The notes under the pieces were generated by a model. The model was not told where the DNA came from. It made no database searches and saw nothing but the letters and a program-made list of their open reading frames with translations. A DNA stretch of 36,027 nucleotides, taken from Acidobacteriota bacterium. GTDB taxonomy: Bacteria; Acidobacteriota; Terriglobia; Acidiferrales; UBA7541. Where the stretch lies: contig QHYZ01000095.1 in NCBI GenBank assembly GCA_003225295.1, positions 1 through 36,027 on the forward strand, in the 5' to 3' direction. The first letter of the stretch is position 1; each line of letters opens with the position of its first letter. Of the stretch, positions 3,246-17,993 are shown one piece after another. The position numbers and the translations under genes are program-made.

Positions 3246-4249
3246 TCAGTAGTCGACAAACTTGAACAGGATCTTTCCGCTGCGATTCGATTTCAAAGAT
3301 TGCTTGAACGCTTCCTTGAACTGGTCGAGCGGGTACACATGCTCCACTGCGGCGGAGAGCGATCCACCAGCTACGAGGTCTCCCAGCTTCTGGTAAATCT
3401 CTTCGATCTCTGTGCGCGGCGCGTTGCGTATCCAATTGATGAGCCAGAATCCGTGGAGGCTAAGACCCCGCTAAGACCACGGTAGATGAACTCCCTGGGC
3501 GGCATAGCTGGGAACTGCCCACTTTGAAGGCCGCAGACGACAACCGAGCCGCCAGGTTTAAGCGATTTGGCCAACTCGCCCACGGGAGCTCCACCCACCG
3601 TATCGAGGACGAGGCTAAGTTTCTCCCCGTCGAGAGCCTCCTCAATATCCTTGTGTAGGTTGCCGCCTTGGAGGACTACGCGGTCACCTCCCCACTCCCG
3701 CACCTGTTCGGCAGCTTCTTCCCGCCGGACGACATTCACCGTCTTGACTCCTGCAAGCTTCGCGAGTGCAATGATGTACTGCCCCATGGCCGCGTTGGCT
3801 GCGGTTTGACCGATCCAGTCGCCGGGCATCAGGGAAACGTATCGGTTCAGCAAGAGATAGGCAGTAACCGGGTTAATCCCTATCATAGCAAGTTGCAGGG
3901 GATCGGCTTCGTCGCTCATCGGCACGAGGTTGCGCACTGGGGCGACAACTTGGTCTGCCCAGGTGCCCTGCTCGTAGGTCGGGATAATCAGGACTCGCTT
4001 TCCCCGCAGAGCAACATCAACCTTCGATCCGATCTTTGCAACTCGGCCAACACCCTCCGCGCCTACCGAGGATGGGAAGGTCGGCCGAACGCCGTACATG
4101 CCGCGGACAAACACAAAGTCTGATGGATTGAGCGGGGCCGCTTCCATCGAGATTAGAACTTCTTCCGGGCCAAGAGCCGGATCCGGCACTGTACTGAGTT
4201 CGATGACATCGGAAGGTTCGCCATGAGCTACGAGTTGCAACTGCCGCAT
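3246..4249 (-). pseudogene. Medium-chain reductase (enoyl-reductase/quinone-reductase-like, ETR_like type), broken by an 11-bp tandem duplication
   Basis: ATG 4249 follows AGGAG at the right distance. The N-terminal GroES-like domain reads AAPLNPSDFVFVRGMYGVRP then SSVGAEGVGRVAKIG. The Rossmann part reads MIGINPVTAYLLLNRYVSLM then IGQTAANAAMGQYIIALAKL and LVLDTVGGAPVGELAKSLKP. This matches 2-enoyl thioester reductase-like proteins of the zinc-independent MDR group, which reduce enoyl or quinone substrates with NADPH. At 3458-3481 the unit GGTCTTAGCGG (minus-strand sense) is repeated, shifting the frame after REFIYRGLS. Removing one copy restores LHGFWLINWIRNAPRTEIEE and a normal end (KSNRSGKILFKFVDY, stop at 3246). 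The ArsR gene follows downstream on the same strand. Confidence 0.88.
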
Positions 4250-4458
4250 TAGAAAACTCCTTTCGTTCGAAACAATTTTTCCGGTAAGCAACAACTCGAA
4301 CATGCCGCTTACACGAATACAGATCGCGTCCTTGCCTGTAAGGACGAATCCTCATGGTCCACTACGCGAGTGACTCCCTCTCTCTGTCACCCACCTTCGA
4401 TGAGCCATGAGACCGGCGCGCCTCGAGTTAGCGATGCTTTCGTACTACGCGCTCGGCA

Positions 4459-5058
4459 TCACACCCGCTGCTGAGCGGGCTCACCAATCCTGTATCGCCG
4501 CGCCGGCACGGAATTCCCGAAACGCTGCGAGATGGCGCGGCACGCGGCCTCAAAACGGGTCCATTCGTCTCCATCATGAAGGCCGGGGATCGTCACCAGT
4601 TCGCCCTGGTCGAGCCCGACCAGCGCTGCATCGACCATGTCTTCCACCGGCATGACGATCGACGGAGGCAGTTTCTGCCATGGGAGGCCGGCGATCTCCC
4701 AGAGGTCGGTCGCGGTCGCGCCCGGCAGCACCGCCTGGACGCGGATACCTTTGTCGGCGAGCTCGTTCTGCAGAGAATGGCGGAACGCAAGGACATAGGC
4801 TTTGCTCGCGCCGTATACACCGTTGAGCGCCTCGGGCGAGACGCCCACCACCGATCCGATGTTGATGATCGTCCCATTGCCGCGCGCGACAAATGCAGGA
4901 GCTGCTGCATAGGTCAGGCGCGTAAGCGCAGTAATGTTGAGAGCGATTATTTCGTCCATCTTGTTAACGTCGGCATTCAGCAGCGACGCAACGGAAGCCG
5001 TGCCGGCATTGTTGATGAGCATGGTGATGCCATTCCGTAGCGTAGCCTCGAACGAGCA
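4459..5058 (-). pseudogene. Short-chain dehydrogenase, N-terminus missing
   Basis: The minus-strand frame carries the SDR second half: MLINNAGTASVASLLNADV (NNAG motif), ALNITALTRLTYAAAPAFVA, the INIGSVVGVSPEALNGVYGASK segment with catalytic Ser and YxxxK, then GIRVQAVLPGATATDLWEIA and a C-terminus ending ARRYRIGEPAQQRV. The first 70-80 residues with the TGxxxGIG cofactor loop are missing. Homology stops near 5050-5060, where plus-strand ADOP permease sequence begins. The frame stays open further upstream to 5571, but only as antisense of the permease. This would have been a YdfG-like NADP-dependent oxidoreductase; without the cofactor loop it should be inactive. Confidence 0.82.
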
Positions 5059-5905
5059 CCCGGAGCTTTCTTCAACGACGTCGACCCACCCTATTTCGAC
5101 ACACTCCGCATTCGTATGATCCTCGCCCGCGCTTTCACAGACGCCGACAGTGAAACAGCTCCGCTCGTCGCGATTATCAACGAGACGATGGCTAGGCATT
5201 TTTGGCCTGGAGAAGACCCAATAGGCAAACGCTTTAGTCTGATCAGCGATGTCGGCCCATTCGTCGAGATCGTAGGTGTTGCGCGCGACGGCAAATACCG
5301 CATTCTCGCTGAAGACCCGCAACCTTACTTTTATGTCCCTCTCACCCAGCACTTCACTGCGCAGCGTACCCTGCAGATTCGTTCCTCGATGCCTCCTGAA
5401 TTGCCTGCCCCCCCTAGTCCAACACGAAGTACAGGCGCTCGATGCTAGTGACCCCATCGAAGAAATCCAAACGATGAGGGAATCGCTGGGCGGCACATTG
5501 GGATATTTCATCTTTCGACTCGGAGCGTCGCTCGCGGCGGCCATGGGCCTGCTCGGATTGCTTCTCGCCATCGTCGGCGTCTACGGCGTAGTTTCCTACG
5601 CCGCAACGCAGCGCACGCAAGAGCTCGGCGTTCGCATGGCGCTCGGAGCAAGCCCGCGCCAGATTCTCGCACTCCTCCTCAGGCAAGGCGCGCAACTAGT
5701 AGCCGCTGGCTTGCTCTTCGGCCTCGTCGGCGCCTGGACCCTCACGCGCGCCATGTCCCACATGCTTGTCGGCGTCAGCCCAAGCGATCCGCTCACCTCT
5801 CTATCTGTAGCGGCTCTGCTCTCTTTCATCACGCTACTCGCCTGCTGGATTCCCGCGCGCCGGGCCATGCGCATCGATCCAATAGTCGCGTTGCGCTACG
5901 AATGA
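5048..5905 (+). pseudogene. ADOP/MacB-FtsX-type permease, C-terminal half with a frameshift
   Basis: The homology starts in the periplasmic MacB_PCD-like domain (PPYFDTLRIRMILARAFTDA, then VAIINETMARHFWPGEDPIG) and goes on through EIVGVARDGKYR. At 5408-5414, a run of seven C, the frame shifts. The continuation is LVQHEVQALDASDPIEEI, then the C-terminal FtsX domain: GLLLAIVGVYGVVSYAATQR, QELGVRMALGASPRQILALL and CWIPARRAMRIDPIVALRYE at the end. Three transmembrane segments and the typical TQRTQELGVRMALGA motif are visible. ADOP permeases are about 800-900 residues; the N-terminal half is missing. The family is greatly expanded in Acidobacteriota and its substrates are mostly unknown. The C-run slip could be a sequencing error, but the N-terminal loss is not. 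Confidence 0.86.
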
Positions 5906-6082
5906 ATCGGAAATCTCCTCCAATCGCCCTGGAAGCCCGACAGTATGAAGCTCTACCGGTACTTGCAGCCAATTCCGGCCGTTTGACGGGCAACCGGGAA
6001 GTTGGTCCGTCGGATTACTACGGACAAACGTTGTCCGGTGGACCTGGTACAAAAGCTGACATTTCCTAGACCGGTGACATAC

Positions 6083-7683
6083 CTACTGTGGCTTCGCGTA
6101 TTCCGCTTTCGCTTGTTTGAGGATAGGGATATCGGGGTCGGCGTCTTTCCACACCGTGAGGAAATCCTGATAAGCCGTCTTGGCTTGGCGATGTTCCCCT
6201 GGATGGTATTGGCACGAGCAAGTCCGAGATGCGCTAACGCTCCCGTCCAACAGTTCCAGACAATGCCGCCGTGGTCGAGAATCTTCTGAAACTCGGCGGC
6301 GGCAGCACTGCCCTGTCCGGCCGCCAGGTGCGCCTCTCCGCGCACATACACCGGATAGAGGCAGGAAATATTGATGACGAACCAAATTTGCCCCAGCTCG
6401 CTGGGTGATGCAGCTTGCGGAGCATTCAGAGCGGAAGCTGGGTTCTTTCTGTCCAGAGCCAGTTTTGCCTGAATCACTGGCAGCCAATGCGACTGCATCT
6501 GAGTGTCCAGCGGAAAGCGTTTCCCTAAGTCTTGCGCCAAGGACTCGGCTCGTGACGTATCGCCCGCCATCGCAAACGCAAGCGCGGCTTCGCTCTCGGC
6601 GCCCAAACTCGCGGGAGCAAGCTTCAAAGCCTTAGCCGCTGTCTGCCGGGCTTCGGGGGCGTTGCCGTAAGCGGCTTCCCTCTGGGCAGCAATCGCCTGA
6701 AATATTGCCCCGTTTTCTTTGTTGTCTGCGCGGATGGCGGAATCCACAGCCCTCTTGGTCAATTCCCGCGCCTTGCCAAGATGACCGCCATATCCTTCGG
6801 TGTCAGATTCGAGCGCAAGTCCCCAGCTCTCAAACTGTGGCCTGTCCGCATACCACTTTTGCTGTTCGGACATCGCAGCAGAATCCGCCCCGAGAAAAGC
6901 AAGAGCATAGAGAACATTATGGAAATAGAAATCATCTATTCTCTGCACCTGCGCCCCGTGGATGATCTGGCGTGCCTCGTCGAAGTGTTGTAAGGCAAGG
7001 GAGTAGTGGGCGAGATTGGCGAACGCATTGTCTCGATCCGCTGCAAGGCGCATGGCTTGCCTACAAATTTCCGCAGCCTTCTCGTACTGCCCCCGGGAGG
7101 CGTACAGCACGGCCAAATTGACGTACGCGCCAGCTTCCCGGGGGTAGCTCTCAATCTCCTCCTGAAACGTCTGGGCCGCTTTATCGAGTTCCCCGGTAAC
7201 AATGGCATAGAAGTGGGCGGTGATCGCCAGCTTCTCGCGTTCACTAGCATGTTCCCGCATCCGGAACTCTTTGGTGAAATACTCGCTGGCCCGCCCAACT
7301 TCGTCGAGACTGGCGTAGTCGCCGCCCACTGCGCTGTAGCCCATGGCGAAATTCGGATCAAGCTGGATGGCACGTTGGTGGTACGCCAGGGCGGGGGCGG
7401 GTCCTTTCTCTCCGTAAGTCTTCATGCCCTGGCTATATGCCTTCAGCGCTTCGAGCGAAGACGTGGTGACCTGTTCGAGAGGTGCATTATACTTCTCCAC
7501 CGCAGCCAGCGATTCGCCTGGTTCGCGGCGCAGCTTGGACGCCGCCCCGCCCAGCACATTCAGCACCTTTTCCTTGGACACCGCAGTCACCTGCTCCTCT
7601 GCCAGCGGGCCAAGACAATTCAATTGACAGCCGTTACATGGCGTATATAATCGGCGGTCATAACCCGAGAGGCACATAGTCAA
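6083..7683 (-). pseudogene. TPR-repeat protein, probable C-terminal part of a kinase- or winged-helix-TPR protein; frameshifted
   Basis: The recognisable part begins near 7614 (PLAEEQVTAVSKEKVLNVLG) and continues through tandem TPR units: AYHQRAIQLDPNFAMGYSAV, AYVNLAVLYASRGQYEKAAE, NLAHYSLALQHFDEARQII, ESEAALAFAMAGDTSRAES. It then reaches YPVYVRGEAHLAAGQGSAAA and a final IVWNCWTGALAHLGLARA. In acidobacterial relatives this region follows a Ser/Thr-kinase or winged-helix domain, which is absent here. Residues 1-23 of the open frame look unrelated, so the gene is 5'-truncated. One base is missing at about 6179-6188; the other frame completes KTAYQDFLTVWKDADPDIPI and ends EYAKPQ at 6083. TPRs mediate protein-protein contacts; no partner can be named. 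Confidence 0.82.
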
Positions 7684-7795: not shown

Positions 7796-9505
7796 ATGAT
7801 AAACCCGGCCATCAGTGCAAAAAAACGGCAGCCAGCTGCGCACGGAGGAGGAGTCCGAGGTGACAACTCCGTTCCACGATCGTCACAGTTCGAGGGCCGC
7901 TTTGGGCGTATGTTTCGATCGCTGCCATCGGCGGAATGGCCCAAAGAAGCGCTCCTCAACCTTGCGAACGCGATGACGTCGCCGCCAGAGCACCTTGAAA
8001 CGGACCCGAAGGTTCCGACGGCGGCATTCGAGGATCTGACAAAGCGCATCCACGACGACGAAGAAAATGCTGGCATTGCGGCTGGCTATACTTACCTAGG
8101 CCAGTTCATTGACCACGACATCACGTTCGACCCGGCTTCGAGCCTCCAGCAGCAGAACGACCCCGACGCTCTCATCGACTTTCGCACCCCGCGGCTTGAT
8201 TTGGACTCGTTGTACGGTCGCGGACCTGGCGATCAACCGTTTATGTACGTAGGCAAGAAATTCCGGCTCGGGCGCGAGCTGAAAGAAAATAAAACGGACA
8301 GTGCGGCACGCGATCTACCGCGATTCAACGACCCGATTAACCCGGGTCCTAAGCGAGCGCTGATCGGTGACAAGCGCAATGACGAAAACGCGATCGTAGC
8401 GCAACTTCATGCTTCGATGCTTCAATTTCACAACAAGCTTGTGGATAAGCACCCGGACGACTCCTTTGAACGTATTCAACAGAGAGTGCGCTGGCACTAT
8501 CAGTGGGTTGTCGTGAATGATTTTTTAAAGACGGTTTGCGGTGCGGAAGTTGTCGAGGACATTCTTCCCGATTTTGGAAAGAAAAAGCCGATCTGGAAGC
8601 TCAAACCGAATCTTTCGATCTTCAAGTGGCGAAATGACCCCTTCATGCCTATTGAATTTTCGGCTGCGGCATACCGCTTTGGGCATTCGATGGTGCGACC
8701 TATCTACCGCCTGAACACCAAACTCGACGGCGGCGACGCAGCCCAGGCCACAGAAGTTGAAAGAAAGCGTGGACTCGCTGGACGTTTCTTTATTTTCGCA
8801 GGGGTGCAAAAGCGTGGCCTGAATGGGTTTGACGAATTTCCCGAACAGTGGGCCATCGATTGGAAGCTTTTTTTCGATATTGATGGCTCCATCAACAAAA
8901 TCGGCATCGAGCGAGTACAGCCGGCCTACAAGATCGACACATCGCTGGTGAACCCGCTGGGATTTCTCCCGGAATTTTCAAAGGCGCCTACGCCTCTCAT
9001 TCCACCGCTCTCGGTGGAGCAATTGCAATCGAAACCCTTGGATCCCAAACATCCGAACGTTGATCCATCGAACCTTGCCAAGCGTAACTTGCTTCGCGGT
9101 TTGGCGATGGGGCTGCCGAGCGGCCAGACTGTTGCTATTTCAATGGGGCTCGACCCTATTGAAGACAAGGATTTGCGCGTCGGAAAGGCTGTGCTGAGCG
9201 ACCTGGCCGGGAATCCAACGCTGACTTCTTTCGATAAAGATAGCAATAGTTTCAAAGAGAATGCGCCGCTCTGGTACTACGTCCTCGCCGAGGCGCAAGT
9301 CGAATGGGGCAAGCGGGCCACCGCTCCAGGCAGCAAAGGCAACGAAGAACCTCTTCGCTTGGGAACTGTAGGTGGACGCATCGTGGCGGAAACGCTCATT
9401 GGCTTGATTTGGGGTGATAGGCACTCTTATCTGCGACAAGCGCCGAACTGGAGACCGGACACGATTCGCGGCATGGGAGACTTGATCCAGTTTGCGCGGA
9501 GCTGA
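7796..9505 (+). CDS. Animal-type haem peroxidase (An_peroxidase superfamily)
   Basis: This is an intact 569-residue protein. ATG 7796 follows GGGGGAGGA by 5 bp. Key residues of the peroxidase-cyclooxygenase superfamily are present: YTYLGQFIDHDITFD at about residues 98-112 gives the haem-linked Asp106, distal His107 and calcium-ligand Asp108. RNDEN near 194-198 supplies the distal Arg and the Glu that contacts haem. AAYRFGHSMVRPIY near 291-304 gives the proximal His297. It should oxidise halides or organic substrates with H2O2. No signal peptide or membrane segment is visible, although many bacterial relatives are exported. It is the first gene of the four-gene operon, 67 bp before the GH31 gene. 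The family is certain; substrate and cell location are not. Confidence 0.93.
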   Translation: MINPAISAKKRQPAAHGGGVRGDNSVPRSSQFEGRFGRMFRSLPSAEWPKEALLNLANAMTSPPEHLETDPKVPTAAFEDLTKRIHDDEENAGIAAGYTYLGQFIDHDITFDPASSLQQQNDPDALIDFRTPRLDLDSLYGRGPGDQPFMYVGKKFRLGRELKENKTDSAARDLPRFNDPINPGPKRALIGDKRNDENAIVAQLHASMLQFHNKLVDKHPDDSFERIQQRVRWHYQWVVVNDFLKTVCGAEVVEDILPDFGKKKPIWKLKPNLSIFKWRNDPFMPIEFSAAAYRFGHSMVRPIYRLNTKLDGGDAAQATEVERKRGLAGRFFIFAGVQKRGLNGFDEFPEQWAIDWKLFFDIDGSINKIGIERVQPAYKIDTSLVNPLGFLPEFSKAPTPLIPPLSVEQLQSKPLDPKHPNVDPSNLAKRNLLRGLAMGLPSGQTVAISMGLDPIEDKDLRVGKAVLSDLAGNPTLTSFDKDSNSFKENAPLWYYVLAEAQVEWGKRATAPGSKGNEEPLRLGTVGGRIVAETLIGLIWGDRHSYLRQAPNWRPDTIRGMGDLIQFARS

Positions 9506-9572
9506 GTAATCTTACCCAGCAATCCTATATGCTGTCGTGAATAACTAGCGGCACCGCGGAAAGAGACCCGCC

Positions 9573-12511
9573 GTGAATCGGATTGGAAATACCTGGCACA
9601 TCCCCACGTCCGTTGAGCCTCGGAACACGATGCGCGATCCGGTGGCCGGGATATCTGCTGCGACAGCGGTCTTTATTTTCAGCGGCAGCCAATTTCAGGG
9701 ACCGGGAGAGCCCGGAAATCAGCTCGAAACTGGGAGTGCCGTTTTCTTCCGGCGTCGCGGCGATGCCTTATGGTCTTCTTTGCCGATGAAGTTCGATGGC
9801 GACCAGGGCAACAACAAATACTACGCAGCTCTGTTGCCGCCGAATACATTCGCGACAGGCGATGTCGTCGAGTATTATTTGCGAATTCCCTTCAGCGACC
9901 ACCTAACTACGTTCGTTCACGGGAGCGACACCAACTCCCTGGCGACACCATTAGAGACCGCCGCGCAGGCGGACCCATTCTCCTTCACCGTCCAAGCTTC
10001 GGGAACACTTGTCTCACTTGATTCGGCAGACCTTCAGGTCCGCGCGTTTTTAGACTCGGGCGAATTGACACTAGCGGGACCCGACTTGCAGGGCAGCCCG
10101 CATGCCAACGTCATTACGTTCTTTGCGCCGACGGTGCGTGTAGCTGGCACAACCTTGCCCCTCGCGCCAATTCGCGATGCGAAAAAAGTGCCAAACGGAT
10201 TGGAGCTTACTTACGATCTCGCTGGCGCGACGGTCGTTGCGCAACTCACATTTCCCGGCGAAGGCGTGATGCAGTACGAGATCGTAGGATGGAACGGCGT
10301 CGTTGCCGAGCAAACAATCGTCACTGTGCGTTCCCACGCCAGCGAACACTTCTTCGGTTTTGGAGAGAAGTTCGACAGCCTCGATCAAGCGGGCAAGGTG
10401 GTGCGGACTGTGACGATGGATGATCCGGGCATAAAGCGTGATCATTCTTACAAAGCGGCGCCGTGGTTTCTCAGTACCCGAGGTTACGGCTTCCACCTCG
10501 ACTCGTCCGCGGAGAGCCTATTCGATCTGCGTGCCAGCCATGCGGACAGCTACTCGGTTACAAATCCGTTCCCCACGCTGCGCTTCAGAGTCGTATACGG
10601 ACCCAATTTATCCGACGTGCTGACGCGGTTCACTGCCTACTCTGGCCGCCCATTTTTGCCGCCTCCCTGGGTATTCGGGCCTTGGATCTCTTCGGATATT
10701 TGGCGAAGCGGTGGCGAAGTCCGCTACGCGGTTAGCAATTTCGCCGGCAATTTCAAAGGTAGAGGAATTCCTCCTCCGCCATCGTCTTCGATTCGCCTTG
10801 GGAGATCGCTTACAACGATTTGAAGTTCAACATGACGCAGTTCGGGTTGGGAGAAGACTTTGAGGGTGATCACTATGACGGCTTTGCTTCCCTGCCGGAA
10901 ATGATGAGCTTCTTGCAAAAGAATGGCCTGAAGGTGATCTGCTGGATGGCCCCATTCGTGAACGTGCAGTCGAACTCAGAAACACTACCGAACCGCTTTC
11001 AGCCCAGCAGTGCGTTAACGAGGGTACCCGGTCAGAATATCGGCAAGGCGTCCAATTATGACGAAGCAGAGAGCAAAGGTTTTTTCGTGCGCAAGGATTC
11101 CGGAGGCACGTTGGTTGTTCCTTGGTGGAAAGGACGAGGCAGTCCGGTTGACTTCACCAATCCAGCGGCACGCAAATGGTTTACGGACCAGCTCGAGGTT
11201 CTACTAAAAGACAGCGAAGTTGCTACAGCGAACGTGGCCAAGGAACCCGCAATCGGCGGATTCAAGACAGACGATGGCGAGACGCAAAACAACGCGCAAC
11301 CACCTGACGTGTACATTCCAGTCAACGCATCGTATGCAGACGGACGAAGAGGGACTCAGATGCGCAACGCATACTGCTTCGAATATCAGCAATGTGTTTC
11401 GGGCGTGTTGGGAAGCAATGGAGTGCTGTTTGCGCGTAGCGGCTTCGTGGGGTGTCAGGCGTTTCCCGGGCACTGGGCTGGAGACAATGAGCCCAACTTT
11501 GATGCTAATGGCTTGTCCGGTGTCATCGTCGCGGGTCTATCCGCGGCAATGTCGGGTTATTCGGTTTGGGGCCATGACGTCGGGGGATATCAGGACTCTA
11601 ATTTTGGCGCATCGACCGCTGACCGTGCCGATCTATTCATGCGTTGGACTCAGTTCGCCTGTTTCTCGCCGATCATGCAGATGCATCGTCAGGTTCACAA
11701 GCAGAAAAAACAGGACTTCACGCCTGGAAAGACGGAGGACCTTCGCCAGTATCCGTGGGGTTACGGTGCGGAGGCGCTTGCTAACTATCAATTCTACGCG
11801 CAGCTTCACACTCGCCTCTTTCCATACATCTACACATATGCTAAGGAGTCCAGCGCAACCGGCGTTCCCATCCTGCGACCCCTCATCTTGATGAATCAGG
11901 GTGATCCGAAGACGCTGGGAGTCCAGCATGCCTACCATTTCGGCAGAGAATTCCTCGTCGCTCCGATCATCGCGTTGAAAGCAAACTCGCGGCAGGTATA
12001 TCTCCCGACGGGCAACTGGGTGGACTTCTGGACGAGTGCAGCCCACATAGGGGAGCAGACCATAGACTGGAACGGCGCGAATCGTAGGCAGTTCCCGCTG
12101 TTTGTGCGAGAAGGTGCCATCGTGCCGCTGCTGCCGGAGAATGTGCAATCCTTATGCGACACGAACTATGTCAACAATCCCACAGTTGCCTCAGCAAAGC
12201 AGGATCTCATTTTTCTGATCTATCCCGGGAGCGCTACATCCCAATTTACGGTTTACGATCAGACGCAAATTCAGTGTCAGCGCTACGGTAACGTTCGGCG
12301 AATCACGCTTAACTCGATTGCGCGTCCAGTGACACTTCAGGTCTCAGGAGCCGAACCTGCCGGCGTCACGCTCGATAATTCCGATTTGCCAAAACGGGGC
12401 ACGCTTGCGGAGTTCGAGGCCTCGGCCACCGGATGGCGTTTCGATTCTGCTTCACGATTTGCGTTCATTAAGTTTCCGCATGCCGGAGGTTCGGCCGAAG
12501 TACGGTGCTGA
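9573..12511 (+). pseudogene. Glycoside hydrolase family 31 (alpha-glucosidase/alpha-xylosidase type), interrupted by one frameshift
   Basis: A GTG at 9573 follows GGAAAGAG. About 160 N-terminal residues form a beta-rich extension. Then come the GH31 N-terminal sandwich (HFFGFGEKFDSLDQAG, AAPWFLSTRGYGFHLDSS) and the start of the barrel (FLPPPWVFGPWISSDIWRS). At 10770-10782 one base is missing in a CCTCCTCCGCC tract. The next frame resumes with AIVFDSPWEIAYNDLKFNMT and continues to the end. Catalytic residues remain: the nucleophile in GGFKTDDGE (first Asp, codon 11270-11272) and the acid/base in GHWAGDNE (Asp codon 11483-11485). The C-terminal beta domain (FGREFLVAPIIA) is complete. With the frame restored the protein is about 980 residues. 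The lesion may be a sequencing error, since everything else looks functional. No signal peptide is seen. Confidence 0.9.
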
Positions 12512-12568
12512 TCATGGCGACTAAGAATCGCCTCGCAGCCGCAAGAGTTCAGCTATACGGAGGTTCGC

Positions 12569-15040
12569 GTGCCAGTCAGCGTTTTGACCCAACATAACGA
12601 CAACATTCGCTCCGGGGCCAATCTGCGGGAAACCACACTCAACACTACTAATGTGAACGTGAATGATTTTGGATTGTTAACCTCGCGCGACGTGGTGGGG
12701 CGCATCTACGCGCAACCCCTATATGTTCCCGGCGTAAAACTAGCCGGCAAAGTGCGAAACGTCGTGTATATCGCGACGATGCACAACTGGCTGTACGCCT
12801 TTGATGCGGACGATTTGTCTCCTGGCGCTGTGCCTCTCTGGAAGCGCCAGGTGGAACCTCACCCAGTTCCCTCACACTTCTACGGCCAAGGCTATGTTGA
12901 CATCAGCAACAACAATGATGACCCGATCGGTATTTTGAGCACGCCAGTTATCGACGCGGCCTCGAACACGATCTATTTAGTCGCTGCGGCCTACGACCCT
13001 GCGATTCTTGCGGGACCCGTAGCGGTGGCGCCGAATGCTTTCAAGCAGCTGCTATTTGCGCTTGACCTTTCGACCGGTGATCTCCGACCGGCCACCGCCG
13101 GCTCGTCGAATCCGATGCCCATTAGTGGATCAGTTCCTGGCGTTGGGTACCGTGACGGCCGAGAAGTCGGTCTGGGAGCGCCTGTTCACAAAACGGCGAA
13201 TGGCGCCAGTGTGGAGGTGACCGTCCATGACAGAAAGATGACCGTTGTTGACGCCGACAACGATAAAGTCTTTTTCAGTCCAATGCAGCAGATGCAACGG
13301 CCCGCACTGCTGCTTGCCGATGGATTGCTTTACATCGCGTTTGGGTCTCACGGCGACTTCGACCCATATCACGGCTGGGTCTTTGCGTATGAGGCCGCAT
13401 CCCTTAAGCAGCGCGGTATATTCTGCACTACGCCCGGAGGCGCAGAGGCCGGCATCTGGCAGGCCGGCGAGGGCCCGGTGGGTGATGGCAAGGGGCACGT
13501 GTACTTCGGCAGCGGGAATGGCGATTCAGGACCTTCGGTAGTCGGTCCGAACCTTGGTGAGAGTTTCATCCGCTTACGCGCCACGGCGACATCCCTCGAT
13601 TTGGACGCCTTCATAACAATCATTCAGGACGCTACGAACCCTGTTGCGGACGAAGACCTTGGGGCTGCCTCACCGACCATTCTTCCGGACGGATTCTTGG
13701 TGGGTGGGGGCAAAGACGGCAACTTTTGTCTCCTTGATCCCGCGCAGATGACCAACACCGGCGCCGCGGCTTCGCTTGTGCAGACCTTCCTTGCGACCAG
13801 AGGCCGAGGCAGCCGTGCCGAAGTGCCCGCCAACGGGAAAACGATCAGCACTCATCATATTCATGGATCGCCAGTTGTTTATGACTCGCCGAATCACGGC
13901 GTGCTCGTTTACGTGTGGGGCGAAAACGAAGTGCTGCGTGTATACCAGTACGATCCTGGCACGCATCGCTTTCCGGGCCAACCCAATGGGCGAAATGCGC
14001 CAGCCCAGAGTGTCGCGATCGGAGCTATGTACGCATCGAACGACGAACTCGAGCGAAATGGGATGCCCGGTGCCATGCTTTCGCTCAGCGCCGATGGCAA
14101 GAAGGCTGGCACCGGCATCCTTTGGGCGTCGCTTCCGCCCTTCAAGAATGCTAATCATGGGAGTGTTGATGGCATTCTGACTGCCTATGATGCTGCGCAG
14201 TTCGACGCACAGGGTCGTATTGTGCAGCTCTGGCATAGCCATCAAAACCCTGACGATGATCCCGGCATCTTTGCGAAGTTTTGTTGCCCAACTGTCGCAG
14301 AGGGTAAAGTGTTCCTGGCAACCTTCAGCAATAAGCTGCGAATCTACGGCCTGCGCCCGACCTCCGATGGAGGCTACGGCGTAGGATTTGGGGGACATAA
14401 CGGTCTCACGCTGAATGGAAGCGCTCGAAGTGCTGGGGGGCCCCTACGCCTTACGGGAAAGCATACTTTTCAAGCTGGAAGCGTCTTCTGCACCGCACCA
14501 GTTAACGTTAAGAAATTCAACTGCTCGTTCCGGTTTCAGACTACTGCAGGAAATGGCACTGCCGACGGTTTGACCTTCTGCATTCAAGGCGAGGGTCCTT
14601 GTGCGCTCGGCGGGCCAGGCGGCGGCTTAGGGTTCGGACCCGATCCCAATAATCCCAACGACCCAGGCTTCAAAATTACCCAGAGCGTAGCTCTCAAGTT
14701 CGATCTTTTTGACAATCAAAACATTCAACCCGGGAGTTTTCTGGGTCTATATAAAAACGGCGACATGCCGACTGCTGCTAATGCTATTGGCGGTGAAATC
14801 CAACTCGCAGCACTGGGCATGGATTTGCACTCCGGGCATCAATTCCTTGCGACCTTGACCTACGATGGCGGGACGCTGCAAATGATTCTGAAAGATCCGA
14901 CTCTGATGACACAGATCACACGCACGTTCCCGATCGACATTCCGTCTATAACCGGGAATACAGCGCATGTGGGCTTTACAGCCGCAACCGGTCTTTCAAC
15001 TGCGGACCACGAAATCCTCACTTGGAAGTTCAACTCGTGA
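12569..15040 (+). CDS. Pyrrolo-quinoline-quinone-like beta-propeller protein with C-terminal L-type-lectin-like domain
   Basis: This is an 823-residue protein starting at GTG 12569, set by GGAGG 5 bp upstream. Residues 1 to about 590 resemble PQQ/YVTN-like propeller proteins: VLTQHNDNIRSGANLRETTL, GRIYAQPLYVPGVKLAGKVR, VVYIATMHNWLYAFDAD, then repeated blade motifs such as VYFGSGNGDSG and GVLVYVWGENEVLRVYQY. From about 605 to the end a legume-lectin-like sandwich is seen (GFGGHNGLTLNGSA; NGTADGLTFCIQGEGPCALG; GGGLGFGPDPNNPNDPG; ALKFDLFDNQ), typical of bacterial L-type lectins that bind glycans with calcium. Whether PQQ is bound is unclear. No signal peptide is visible. It lies 57 bp after GH31 and overlaps the amine oxidase start, so it is part of the same operon. 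Confidence 0.85.
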   Translation: MPVSVLTQHNDNIRSGANLRETTLNTTNVNVNDFGLLTSRDVVGRIYAQPLYVPGVKLAGKVRNVVYIATMHNWLYAFDADDLSPGAVPLWKRQVEPHPVPSHFYGQGYVDISNNNDDPIGILSTPVIDAASNTIYLVAAAYDPAILAGPVAVAPNAFKQLLFALDLSTGDLRPATAGSSNPMPISGSVPGVGYRDGREVGLGAPVHKTANGASVEVTVHDRKMTVVDADNDKVFFSPMQQMQRPALLLADGLLYIAFGSHGDFDPYHGWVFAYEAASLKQRGIFCTTPGGAEAGIWQAGEGPVGDGKGHVYFGSGNGDSGPSVVGPNLGESFIRLRATATSLDLDAFITIIQDATNPVADEDLGAASPTILPDGFLVGGGKDGNFCLLDPAQMTNTGAAASLVQTFLATRGRGSRAEVPANGKTISTHHIHGSPVVYDSPNHGVLVYVWGENEVLRVYQYDPGTHRFPGQPNGRNAPAQSVAIGAMYASNDELERNGMPGAMLSLSADGKKAGTGILWASLPPFKNANHGSVDGILTAYDAAQFDAQGRIVQLWHSHQNPDDDPGIFAKFCCPTVAEGKVFLATFSNKLRIYGLRPTSDGGYGVGFGGHNGLTLNGSARSAGGPLRLTGKHTFQAGSVFCTAPVNVKKFNCSFRFQTTAGNGTADGLTFCIQGEGPCALGGPGGGLGFGPDPNNPNDPGFKITQSVALKFDLFDNQNIQPGSFLGLYKNGDMPTAANAIGGEIQLAALGMDLHSGHQFLATLTYDGGTLQMILKDPTLMTQITRTFPIDIPSITGNTAHVGFTAATGLSTADHEILTWKFNS

Positions 15041-16458
15041 GGGCGCGCCGGGATTCCCATCGGGGCAAGAAACAGATTCGACGCAGCGGCACGCATTCTC
15101 AACGAGCACCAGAAAAGCCGCGCTCATGCATAGTGATCGGTGCCGGCCTGGCTGGCTTGTCCGCTGCCTATCGGCTTAAGACGCGGGGATGGAATGTGAC
15201 CGTCCTGGAAGCTTTACAAAAAGTGGGCGGTCGCGTCTTTTCTTACAAGTTTGAGCAAGCCCCGAAACTCACTTGTGAACTGGGAGCGGAGTGGATTGGT
15301 GTACAGCATAAAGCTATAAGAAGACTGTGTGATGAATTGGGCTTGAAGCTCCAGCGCCACCGCTATTCCTTTGCATTTTGGAATGGAGGCAAGCCGCCAT
15401 CACGGTTTTTCAAGCCGGGGGCGTGGTGTTTTTCAAGGAAGGTGGGCAGAAACTTCAAAGCCTTTAAGAAGCTGTTTGTGAACTACGATGCGGCGCAGAT
15501 TCGAGATCTGGATCAGTTTGATTGGTGGAGCGTGTTGCGCTCGCTGGGGTTCACAAATGAGGAGCTCCGCAATCGCGACTTGATGGACAGCACCGATTTC
15601 GGGGAAACAATTCGCTTGACCTCTGCCTATGGAGCGGCGGCGGAGTATTCAGAGGGCACCGACACTGACGCCATGGACTACAAAATTAGGGGCGGTAACA
15701 ACCAACTACCCTACGCGCTCGCGGGCGAGTTGGACCCAGACGCTTTGTATCTGAGCGCCAAAGTCCGTGCGATCCATCAAACCTCGGCCGGAGTGAAAGT
15801 CTTCGTCAACGGAAGAAAAAGGCCATTCCGTGCGGAGTTTTGCATCTGCTCTGTCCCCGCGCAGTGCTTGCTCAAAATCAAATGGAAACCTGCCCTACCC
15901 GAAGAGCAGGCAGCCGCCGCTCAGCAGTTACAGTACTCGCGCATTATGAAGACAGCAGTGTTGTTCAATAGGAGGTTCTGGCCTCACTACAAAAGATCAG
16001 GGTTTTCCGCATTTACGACGCGCATCTCCGATTTCTGTTTCGACAGTACCTACGGCCAGCGTGGCTCAAAGGGCATCCTGTGCAGTTATTCGATCGGAGA
16101 CAAAGCTGACGACCTGTCATCAGAGCCGAGCAAGGCAAATATCAAGGAATGGATCCGGGGCGACATGATGAAAGTGACTCGCACCAAGGAAACTCAAAGC
16201 AAGAAGCCTAAAGGTAAGAAATCTCAAGGCAAACAATCTGAAATCGTCGCAATTGATGTCAGGCCGCAAGCCTGGCAGAAGGTCCCGTGGATCGGCGGAG
16301 CCTACGCTTTCTATCGTCCTGGCCAGTGGTTCACTGTCAGGCCCATCTTGCAGCGAGCCCATGGTCGTGTGCTGTTCGCCGGCGAACACCTTGCTGACCT
16401 GCAAGGCTTTATGGAAGGCGCCGTAAATACCGGTGAAGCTGCCGCGGACCAGCTTTGA
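15037..16458 (+). CDS. FAD-dependent amine oxidase (flavin monoamine oxidase family)
   Basis: The protein has 473 residues from GTG 15037, which overlaps the previous stop as GTGA; GGAAG lies 8 bp upstream. This 4-bp overlap fits translational coupling better than the TTG at 15022. The FAD-binding motif CIVIGAGLAGLSAAYRLKTR (GxGxxG near residues 34-39) is followed by VTVLEALQKVGGRVFSY, and CELGAEWIG binds the cofactor. The C-terminus GRVLFAGEHLADLQGFMEGA then VNTGEAAADQL is the standard flavin-contacting end. An unusual Lys/Gln-rich stretch (KETQSKKPKGKKSQGKQSE, about residues 384-402) looks like a loop insertion. The family oxidises amines, giving aldehyde, ammonia and H2O2, which could feed the peroxidase in the same operon. 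The true substrate is unknown. Confidence 0.9.
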   Translation: MRARRDSHRGKKQIRRSGTHSQRAPEKPRSCIVIGAGLAGLSAAYRLKTRGWNVTVLEALQKVGGRVFSYKFEQAPKLTCELGAEWIGVQHKAIRRLCDELGLKLQRHRYSFAFWNGGKPPSRFFKPGAWCFSRKVGRNFKAFKKLFVNYDAAQIRDLDQFDWWSVLRSLGFTNEELRNRDLMDSTDFGETIRLTSAYGAAAEYSEGTDTDAMDYKIRGGNNQLPYALAGELDPDALYLSAKVRAIHQTSAGVKVFVNGRKRPFRAEFCICSVPAQCLLKIKWKPALPEEQAAAAQQLQYSRIMKTAVLFNRRFWPHYKRSGFSAFTTRISDFCFDSTYGQRGSKGILCSYSIGDKADDLSSEPSKANIKEWIRGDMMKVTRTKETQSKKPKGKKSQGKQSEIVAIDVRPQAWQKVPWIGGAYAFYRPGQWFTVRPILQRAHGRVLFAGEHLADLQGFMEGAVNTGEAAADQL

Positions 16459-16934
16459 AACGCCGATGACCGCACTACGCCAGCAGCTTGGCCCACTGGT
16501 GGGCAGATTCCTTCTGCGTCAGAAGGACGCGGCAACACAGTGCCGGTTCGCCCGTAGTCGCTGAGCTGGGCAAGTCAGCGACGCATATACCTATTCGGTT
16601 GAGACTAATAATAGATATTAACAACCCGAGGCCTACACTTTACTTTCTACTCACCAGATGTCAGGCCGAGTTCGAAATGATCGGCTTCCCGGTCGTCTTC
16701 ACGAGCTCAAACGCAGACCTTGCTGATCATTCGCTATCCTTATGAAAGGTTTCGAGCGTTCGCTATTATAGTAATCAAGCCGGCTCGAGAAAACAACTTT
16801 CGTTAACGCTTCTTGCGTGTATGCCATCAAGGAGGCTATCGGCCATTATGTCGGCTCGCTTCCGCTGCCGTTTGGATTGCTCATCCGGGCCAGGCCAATT
16901 GGAAAAGCTTGCGGCTTCCAATCTGAAACCCGGG
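16459..16934. other. Intergenic region without a convincing gene
   Basis: Open frames of 75-85 codons occur on both strands but none resembles a protein family. A short hairpin CCTTCTG-cgt-CAGAAGG lies at 16510-16526, about 50 bp after the amine oxidase. It has no T-run and is only a weak terminator candidate. The right end is the sequence flanking the group II intron 3' end. On the minus strand a 74-codon frame (ending LDGIHARSVNESCFLEPA) crosses the intron border and is probably not real. Confidence 0.5.
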
Positions 16935-16935
16935 G

Positions 16936-17006
16936 GAGTAGGCCCGCGGAATGTCACCGCGAGCCTCTCGCAGAACCGGACATGAACCTCTCGGCGCATC
17001 CGGCTC
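16936..17006 (-). ncRNA. Group II intron domains V and VI (3' end of a bacterial group II intron)
   Basis: On the minus strand 17006-16973 gives a 34-nt domain V. Its outer arms GAGCCGGA and TCCGGTTC pair completely (one G-U), it carries the AGC catalytic triad near the 5' end, and it has a GAGA tetraloop of GNRA type. It is followed by a domain VI stem, GGCTCGCGG paired with CCGCGGGCC, and the typical CCTACTC near the intron 3' end with a candidate branch-point A. It begins 3 bp after the reverse-transcriptase stop codon, the normal arrangement. The intron's 5' portion (domains I-IV start) is not present, so it cannot splice. The exact last intron nucleotide is uncertain by a few bases. Confidence 0.85.
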
Positions 17007-17009
17007 CCA

Positions 17010-17480
17010 TCAATTAAACACTCCGGTCATGCCGATATCCCAATGTACGAAGAGAGCCCGTTGTTCCTTGGCGAGCCTTTGTAGGAACTGGCTCGCCCGG
17101 ACTTTGATGGCCTTTAAAGCGCTTGTACTTTCGCATCACCCAGGCCACCAGCATCTGATTGATGTGCCGGAGCAAGGGGTACAGCGCCGATGAGGCGTAG
17201 CGCCCGTAGTACTCGATCCAACCCCGCAGGAGTGGATTGAGCTGCCGGGCGATGTCCTGCAACGATAGCTGTGTTTGATGGTTAAGTTTCAATTCCCGAA
17301 TCGCCGACCGCATGGCTTTCATCGCCGAGGAGCTAACTGCGGGATTGAATCCGCAGAATAGCGTGTTATCCCGGAAACGTCTTACCAGTCGTGGCCGAAA
17401 GCAGTATCCAAGAAAGTCAAATTTGACGTTCGGATACTCGCCTTTGCGCTTTTTGTCTTTGCAGTAGGCGATTCTGGTGA
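17010..17480 (-). pseudogene. Group II intron reverse transcriptase/maturase, C-terminal fragment with frameshift
   Basis: The minus-strand frame starts without an ATG at the junction (TRIAYCKDKKRKGEYPNVKF, then DFLGYCFRPRLVRRF). It continues through the maturase (GIIM) domain: QLNPLLRGWIEYYGRYASSA, LYPLLRHINQMLVAWVMRKY, KRFKGH. At about 17100-17108 one base is off. The alternative frame gives the family end VRASQFLQRLAKEQRALFVH then WDIGMTGVFN and a TGA at 17010-17012. Roughly 150 residues of a protein of 400 or more remain; the polymerase YADD region is missing. It encoded the protein that splices and moves its intron, whose domains V and VI follow immediately. Confidence 0.88.
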
Positions 17481-17746: not shown

Positions 17747-17993
17747 GCTCTTGAGGTTTCAGAAACCAGCTGTGCGAGAACATTGTGAGACCGGAAACCA
17801 AGCCTTTTCAATGCGTTTGAGATTTTTGACCATACGGGACGCGGTCACGCTGGCGCGGTTGATTTATACTTCGAGACTATAGCGTTCTGGATTGTTATAG
17901 CTGACCACAAGGCAGGACATACATTAGCCAGTGGCAAGCACCACAAGCTTCGGGTTTTCGCGGATGGCGGAGTGCGCGGCAAGGAGCTAACGC

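Follow-up and report, generated by a model that had tools for sequence, protein, structure and literature searches.

In Streptomyces, the radical copper oxidase GlxA makes hydrogen peroxide (H2O2) that the peroxidase DtpA uses in vitro in a glycan pathway (PMC4736821), and the role of the short bacterial peroxicins of family 5 was described as completely unknown in a survey of 2015 (PMC4420034). We analysed a 36,027-nucleotide stretch of Acidobacteriota DNA (contig QHYZ01000095.1 of assembly GCA_003225295.1, hereafter the window) that carries adjoining genes for an animal-type haem peroxidase, a glycoside hydrolase of family 31 (GH31), a propeller-lectin protein and a flavin adenine dinucleotide (FAD)-binding enzyme of the amine oxidase family. 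The window is contig C199 of the 8.13-Mb draft genome (G000) of a soil bacterium. An original prediction, made from the sequence alone, had described the four genes as a co-directional operon with gaps of 67 and 57 bp followed by a GTGA overlap, and both the open reading frames (ORFs) and their Pfam profiles bear this layout out (Table 1). A search of the open-licence literature returned no paper combining haem peroxidase, amine oxidase, glycoside hydrolase family 31 and bacteria.

A lineage-restricted four-gene unit under selection

The four-gene set is a real, lineage-restricted unit under selection. Its order and approximate spacing recur in a second genome of the genus (G024), its genes evolve under purifying selection, and its first gene is preceded in three species by a perfect promoter match, so that the arrangement is more than a product of chance; the predicted single conserved unit thus stands, and its gene order is not confined to the genome in which it was noticed. 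Among the 36 genus genomes compared (G000-G035), peroxidase orthologues (about 85% identity or more) are found in G000, G024 and G032, the G024 protein being ~84-85% identical to that of the window, and orthologues of the GH31 enzyme (76% or more), the propeller-lectin protein (over 80%; 82% in G024) and the oxidase (79% or more) are found in G000 and G024. The G024 locus keeps the same gene order, with GH31 as one 985-residue ORF and the oxidase cut at the contig end, and blastn similarity to the window begins at the peroxidase start and continues across the unit until the G024 contig ends; ahead of the unit, the two genomes have different genes. In G032, the contig ends inside the peroxidase, with the promoter and the first 150 peroxidase residues at that end; no orthologue of the GH31, propeller-lectin or oxidase gene was found elsewhere in that genome.

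The ratios of nonsynonymous to synonymous substitution (dN/dS) between the window and G024 genes were obtained with our own Nei-Gojobori script and are rough, given a synonymous divergence above 1. They amount to 0.055 for the peroxidase, 0.069 for the propeller-lectin protein, 0.060 for the oxidase (148 codons compared) and, on the two sides of a frame break in GH31, 0.121 before and 0.077 after it, all far below neutrality, which places all four genes under purifying selection.

Upstream of the peroxidase, ~145 nt from its start, a site with a 16-nt spacer matches the sigma-70 consensus at 12 of 12 positions, as a pattern match rather than a mapped transcription start. The perfect site recurs ahead of the peroxidase in G024 (L019 7236-7263) and in G032 (L020 3293-3320), and hence in all three species that have a peroxidase orthologue. 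TTGACA-N16-TATAAT occurs a single time in the whole 8.13-Mb G000 genome, and when spacers of 15-19 nt are allowed the counts are 2 in G000, 4 in G024 and 3 in G032, one per genome being the peroxidase site. Across 86 peroxidase stretches, which count G017 twice (L022, L096) and G015 twice (L023, L132), a site of at least 11/12 within 400 nt upstream is found only in G000, G024 and G032, for a background expectation of 0.0011 per stretch. A plus-strand scan at 9/12 or better found no site between the genes of the unit and one inside the oxidase gene.

Table 1. Features of the four-gene unit and its upstream promoter-like site in the window
Feature	Position	Strand	Support
Promoter-like site TTGACA-N16-TATAAT	7624..7651	+	12/12 consensus positions
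Animal-type haem peroxidase, 569 aa, leaderless	7796..9505	+	PF03098 E 3.7e-12; haem-site motifs
GH31 5' ORF (before the frame break), with the N-terminal region and a mutarotase-like domain	9573..10823	+	PF13802 E 4.5e-16
GH31 3' ORF, with the C-terminal domain and the barrel that carries both catalytic Asp motifs	10820..12511	+	PF01055 E 1e-49, PF21365 E 1.9e-21
Predicted 8-bladed propeller and legume-type lectin domain, 823 aa, leaderless	12569..15040	+	PF00139 E 9.4e-17; predicted model
Enzyme of the FAD amine oxidase family, 473 aa when started at the GTG in the GTGA overlap, leaderless	15037..16458	+	PF01593 E 3.4e-58

The surroundings of the unit hold further features. Just 3' of it in the window lies a group II intron remnant (RF00029, with a maturase GIIM domain; 16933-17322, minus strand), 71 nt of which match G017 near its peroxidase and a phosphoesterase (L022 943-1013), and a 74-nt segment of the window (17769-17842) has a 92% identical copy ~330 nt 5' of the G032 peroxidase (L020 3090-3163). 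The region 5' of the unit in G024 (L019 148-7072) contains pieces of a GMC oxidoreductase in two ORFs, two PF04185 phosphoesterases and a 432-residue protein with no Pfam or NCBIfam match; PF04185-like genes near peroxidases also occur in L087, L089 and G017.

The encoded proteins and their export leaders

The peroxidase matches the PF03098 profile with 46 bits against a curated cut-off of 25, over positions 143-328 of 530, and retains all four haem-site motifs, each of which occurs in 74-77 of the 77 rows of the family and which, by comparison with myeloperoxidase, we take to be the distal His, the catalytic Arg, the proximal His and an Asn. Sequence comparison with solved chains gave no match for this protein. 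The oxidase scores 198 bits against the PF01593 cut-off of 19.8 and displays both the FAD fingerprint and a conserved Lys that we take to be the active-site residue of flavin amine oxidases; its nearest solved chain is 7eme (E 1.2e-39), followed by engineered and natural L-amino-acid oxidases. The enzyme likely makes hydrogen peroxide, and the earlier pairing of an H2O2-producing amine oxidase family with an H2O2-consuming peroxidase family agrees with the motifs kept in both proteins.

As to the second gene, the assignment to GH31 holds, with the barrel and the C-terminal domain above their Pfam cut-offs and both catalytic Asp motifs present, and the single open gene of the original prediction does not, as the window carries two ORFs in different frames. 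The nearest solved match is the cycloalternan-forming enzyme Lmo2446 (5i0d, 4kmq; E 3.5e-71 over G024 residues 253-974), and the predicted GH31 model, with a mean predicted local distance difference test score (pLDDT) of 32.5, is unusable. The propeller region of the third protein has no Pfam match. In its model (mean pLDDT 59.1), residues 28-596 align with 8-bladed propellers, among them BamB (4xga_A; Z 29.3, rmsd 2.4, 333 residues), and the top Foldseek rows are quinoprotein-dehydrogenase-like, with TM scores of 0.4 or less on the query; as modelled, the protein is an 8-bladed, BamB-like propeller followed by a legume-type lectin domain.

None of the four frames, whether in the window or in G024, provides a start codon with a leader when read to the preceding stop. 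Leaders were at first scored with a crude hydrophobicity rule of our own, which the hydrophobic FAD strand confused in the oxidase rows, and for the oxidases this scoring was replaced by inspection of every frame back to its upstream stop; between them, the two approaches uphold the absence of signal peptides that had been noted for all four proteins. By the crude rule, 74 of the 77 peroxidase rows are leaderless. Outside the unit, the same rule assigns leaders to 9 of 13 GH31 homologues and to 8 of 10 propeller homologues, with a ninth recognised by eye and the tenth, leaderless, being the copy in L088, 2.7 kb from a peroxidase. A Tat-like (twin-arginine translocation) RRxF motif is present in all 17 oxidase relatives at 42-46% identity (family f31 of the phylum) and in one of two more distant relatives, and the related oxidase of G043 is leaderless like that of the unit. 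At four other loci (L084, L068, L111 and L127), the peroxidase is leaderless and a neighbour has a leader. A loss of leaders upon recruitment to the operon is weakened as an explanation by the G043 oxidase, which is leaderless in a genome with no match to the window peroxidase. Among described enzymes, a glycine oxidase of the LodA type carries a Tat signal (PMC3948610), and an antimicrobial flavin L-amino acid oxidase occurs in culture supernatants with no detectable signal peptide (PMC6316408).

Further peroxidase genes were also recorded. G000 has a second one, split over two ORFs (L003 2731-4379, contig C149), the counterpart of which in G015 is intact (L023 11865-13424) and comes first in a same-strand run, followed by a 263-residue protein of unknown type and a 475-residue BNR-propeller protein, both of which start with no obvious leader. 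Of 72,556 plasmid records, 33 carry relatives of the peroxidase, all below 60% identity; Rhizobium and Sinorhizobium account for most of these records. Viral carriage was considered and set aside, a scan of viral contigs for close relatives only having returned none. We likewise discarded a role as cargo of contractile injection systems, for the sheath gene PF04984 is found in two (G000 and G013) of eight peroxidase-bearing genomes, several of them drafts, and was not found in G015, G017, G024, G030, G032 or G059.

Peroxidase neighbourhoods outside the genus

A scan of genome contigs yielded 517 confirmed peroxidase loci, and we looked at the best 80, which include G024's own (L060). Four of the 80 have partners comparable to those of the unit. 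In L084, from Planctomycetia, a galactose-oxidase-like enzyme lies directly downstream of the peroxidase, and a GH31 gene at 42-48% identity, in more than one frame, lies 2.4 kb away; in L088, from Terriglobia, the peroxidase is accompanied by a GH13 gene, two propellers, a radical SAM gene and a ferritin-like gene whose LodA_C match falls short of the curated cut-off. L098 encodes a galactose-oxidase-like protein near the peroxidase, and L127 encodes both a separate propeller gene and, 2.6 kb from the peroxidase, a 1295-residue protein with no obvious leader (3463-7350). The first 580 residues of the latter have no Pfam match of their own and are 55% identical to the GH13 protein of L088, and its C-terminal part is galactose-oxidase-like, which makes it a fusion of GH13-like and galactose-oxidase-like parts. 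All three galactose-oxidase-like proteins retain a Cys, a Tyr, a Tyr-His and a His, the last recognised by eye in two of them, which we take to be the residues of radical copper oxidases. Three Bacteroidota loci (L081, L086 and L093) combine a GMC oxidoreductase with a ferritin-like gene. Separately, L087 (4885-9586) and L088 (11581-16171), loci of different phyla, have in common a three-gene set of a 540-554-residue protein of unknown type, a gene that in L088 is radical SAM, and a ferritin-like gene.

On a quick peroxidase tree, which contained no published family 5 members, at least three label changes are required to account for the four loci that have glycan or oxidase partners, counted against the other labelled rows only; these may represent one gain and two losses, and the operon pair is placed apart from all four. 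A generally conserved neighbourhood was rejected, as every partner cluster is confined to 13 or fewer of the 86 stretches, with response regulators and ABC ATPases as the most frequent ones. The Pfam tallies covered 152 of the 153 ORFs within 1 kb of peroxidases (L116:11170-13221, which overlaps the peroxidase, was left out) and the first 25 families per tally.

Such neighbourhoods raise a broader idea, which we consider rather improbable: that bacterial animal-type peroxidases form the core of repeatedly assembled modules of oxidase, alpha-glucan enzyme, propeller or lectin and peroxidase, the latter having no classical export, for peroxide-driven oxidation or cross-linking of glycans in the cell or after release, with the operon as a compact, one-promoter member. 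If true, it would give a function to bacterial peroxidases that have no assigned role. The recurrence of oxidase and glycan partners beside peroxidases is suggestive only, because oxidase families are not significantly enriched near peroxidases over distant positions (6 of 226 ORFs versus 1 of 205, p 0.13), in a comparison that took its seeds from the near set.

Candidate mechanisms and relation to known systems

We tentatively favour, at a little under an even chance, a co-regulated H2O2 relay from oxidase to peroxidase that acts together with an alpha-glucan module, all from one transcription unit and with no export signals. One strong promoter would give rise to a single transcription unit of four genes, whose products would act jointly: the flavin oxidase would act on an amine or amino acid and give off H2O2, the haem peroxidase would consume that H2O2 while oxidising a second substrate, and the propeller-lectin protein would hold an alpha-glucan-like glycan, as scaffold or as target, that the GH31 enzyme would trim. 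We thereby infer a shared transcript, the transfer of H2O2, a glycan target and a compartment, namely the cytoplasm or, via some unspecified release route, the cell exterior. The relay is supported because the unit is kept in G024 despite different upstream genes, with dN/dS of 0.055-0.121 across all four; because the perfect promoter match, unique in the genome, stands in three species and no intergenic plus-strand site reaches 9/12; because the motifs of peroxidase and oxidase are complete; because other peroxidases of the family adjoin galactose-oxidase-like, GMC, weakly LodA-like, GH13/GH31 and propeller genes; and because H2O2 transfer from GlxA to DtpA has been shown in a bacterial glycan pathway (PMC4736821).

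Several observations weigh against it. The expected conservation of gene order was found in G024, and a wide system is not supported, the full set being present in 2 of the 36 genus genomes (with the G024 oxidase incomplete) and the other three genes standing beside a peroxidase only at G024's own locus among the best 80 of 517; the seven nearest others (L061-L067; 63-67% identical, from Acidobacteriota and Pseudomonadota) have none of those three genes within the stretch examined. The nearest outside oxidase, at 49-52% identity, belongs to G043, whose genome has no match to the window peroxidase, and both the non-significant oxidase enrichment and the single frame break in the window's GH31, near 10.77 kb, count on the same side. 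The G043 case also speaks for another account, which we regard as unlikely: the four genes would be co-transcribed with no relay, the oxidase and the peroxidase each having its own substrate, and the peroxidase might, for instance, scavenge peroxide or oxidise a halide or Mn(II). It draws on the 17 family f31 oxidase relatives, with no recurring peroxidase in nine neighbourhoods, on the 79 of 80 loci where the peroxidase stands without the oxidase, and on manganese oxidation by another haem peroxidase, MopA (PMC6247904), but it has to accommodate an oxidase and a peroxidase kept together in two species over saturated synonymous divergence.

The leaderless state of all four proteins, together with the signal-less flavin L-amino acid oxidase of culture supernatants (PMC6316408), also suits a variant of the relay that differs in compartment, in which an antimicrobial set would be stored inside the cell and freed by lysis or another leaderless route; once outside, the oxidase would meet its substrate, the peroxidase would turn H2O2 into hypohalite-like oxidants and the lectin would target glycans. 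Beside the unit, however, we recognised no gene for lysis, secretion or immunity, and contractile sheath genes do not track the peroxidases, and we consider this variant very unlikely. Least probable of all in our view is a decaying passenger cassette, acquired jointly and fading in function in this genome with GH31 first. The GH31 frame break, the second G000 peroxidase locus in two ORFs, the intron remnant just downstream and the patchy distribution in the genus all point that way, but dN/dS does not exceed 0.121 for either side of the break or for any of the other three genes, and the break is single and uncompensated and would look identical if it were a draft assembly error. Because dN/dS is low on both sides, the break is recent or an assembly error; unless it is the latter, the GH31 step is probably lost in this genome.

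Under the relay that we prefer, the unit would tie a short animal-type peroxidase to a specific, probably peroxide-making oxidase and to a glycan module, and thus to a partner and a substrate class, with the absence of leaders raising the question of where it works. Compared by description, the family 5 peroxicins of the peroxidase-cyclooxygenase superfamily are likewise short bacterial animal-type members, and the passages of that survey considered here describe no operon partners (PMC4420034). The window oxidase has the family and fold motifs of known flavin L-amino acid and amine oxidases (7eme, MAO, putrescine oxidase and Pl-LAAO), the last of which is also without a detectable signal (PMC6316408), and differs from them in its operon setting, next to genes for a peroxidase and glycan proteins. 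The GH31 enzyme, whose first ~240 residues fall outside the stretch matched to Lmo2446, its best solved sequence match, differs from the latter in being leaderless and, in the window, broken. Finally, the unit would represent a flavin-based version of the oxidase-peroxidase coupling of Streptomyces, where GlxA and DtpA act with CslA/CslZ and likewise combine an H2O2-making oxidase and a haem peroxidase in a glycan pathway. The Streptomyces system pairs a radical copper oxidase with a DyP-type peroxidase, is encoded in two separate gene groups and exports DtpA by the Tat route (PMC4736821), whereas the window pairs a flavin oxidase with an animal-type peroxidase in one leaderless unit that includes no glycan synthase.

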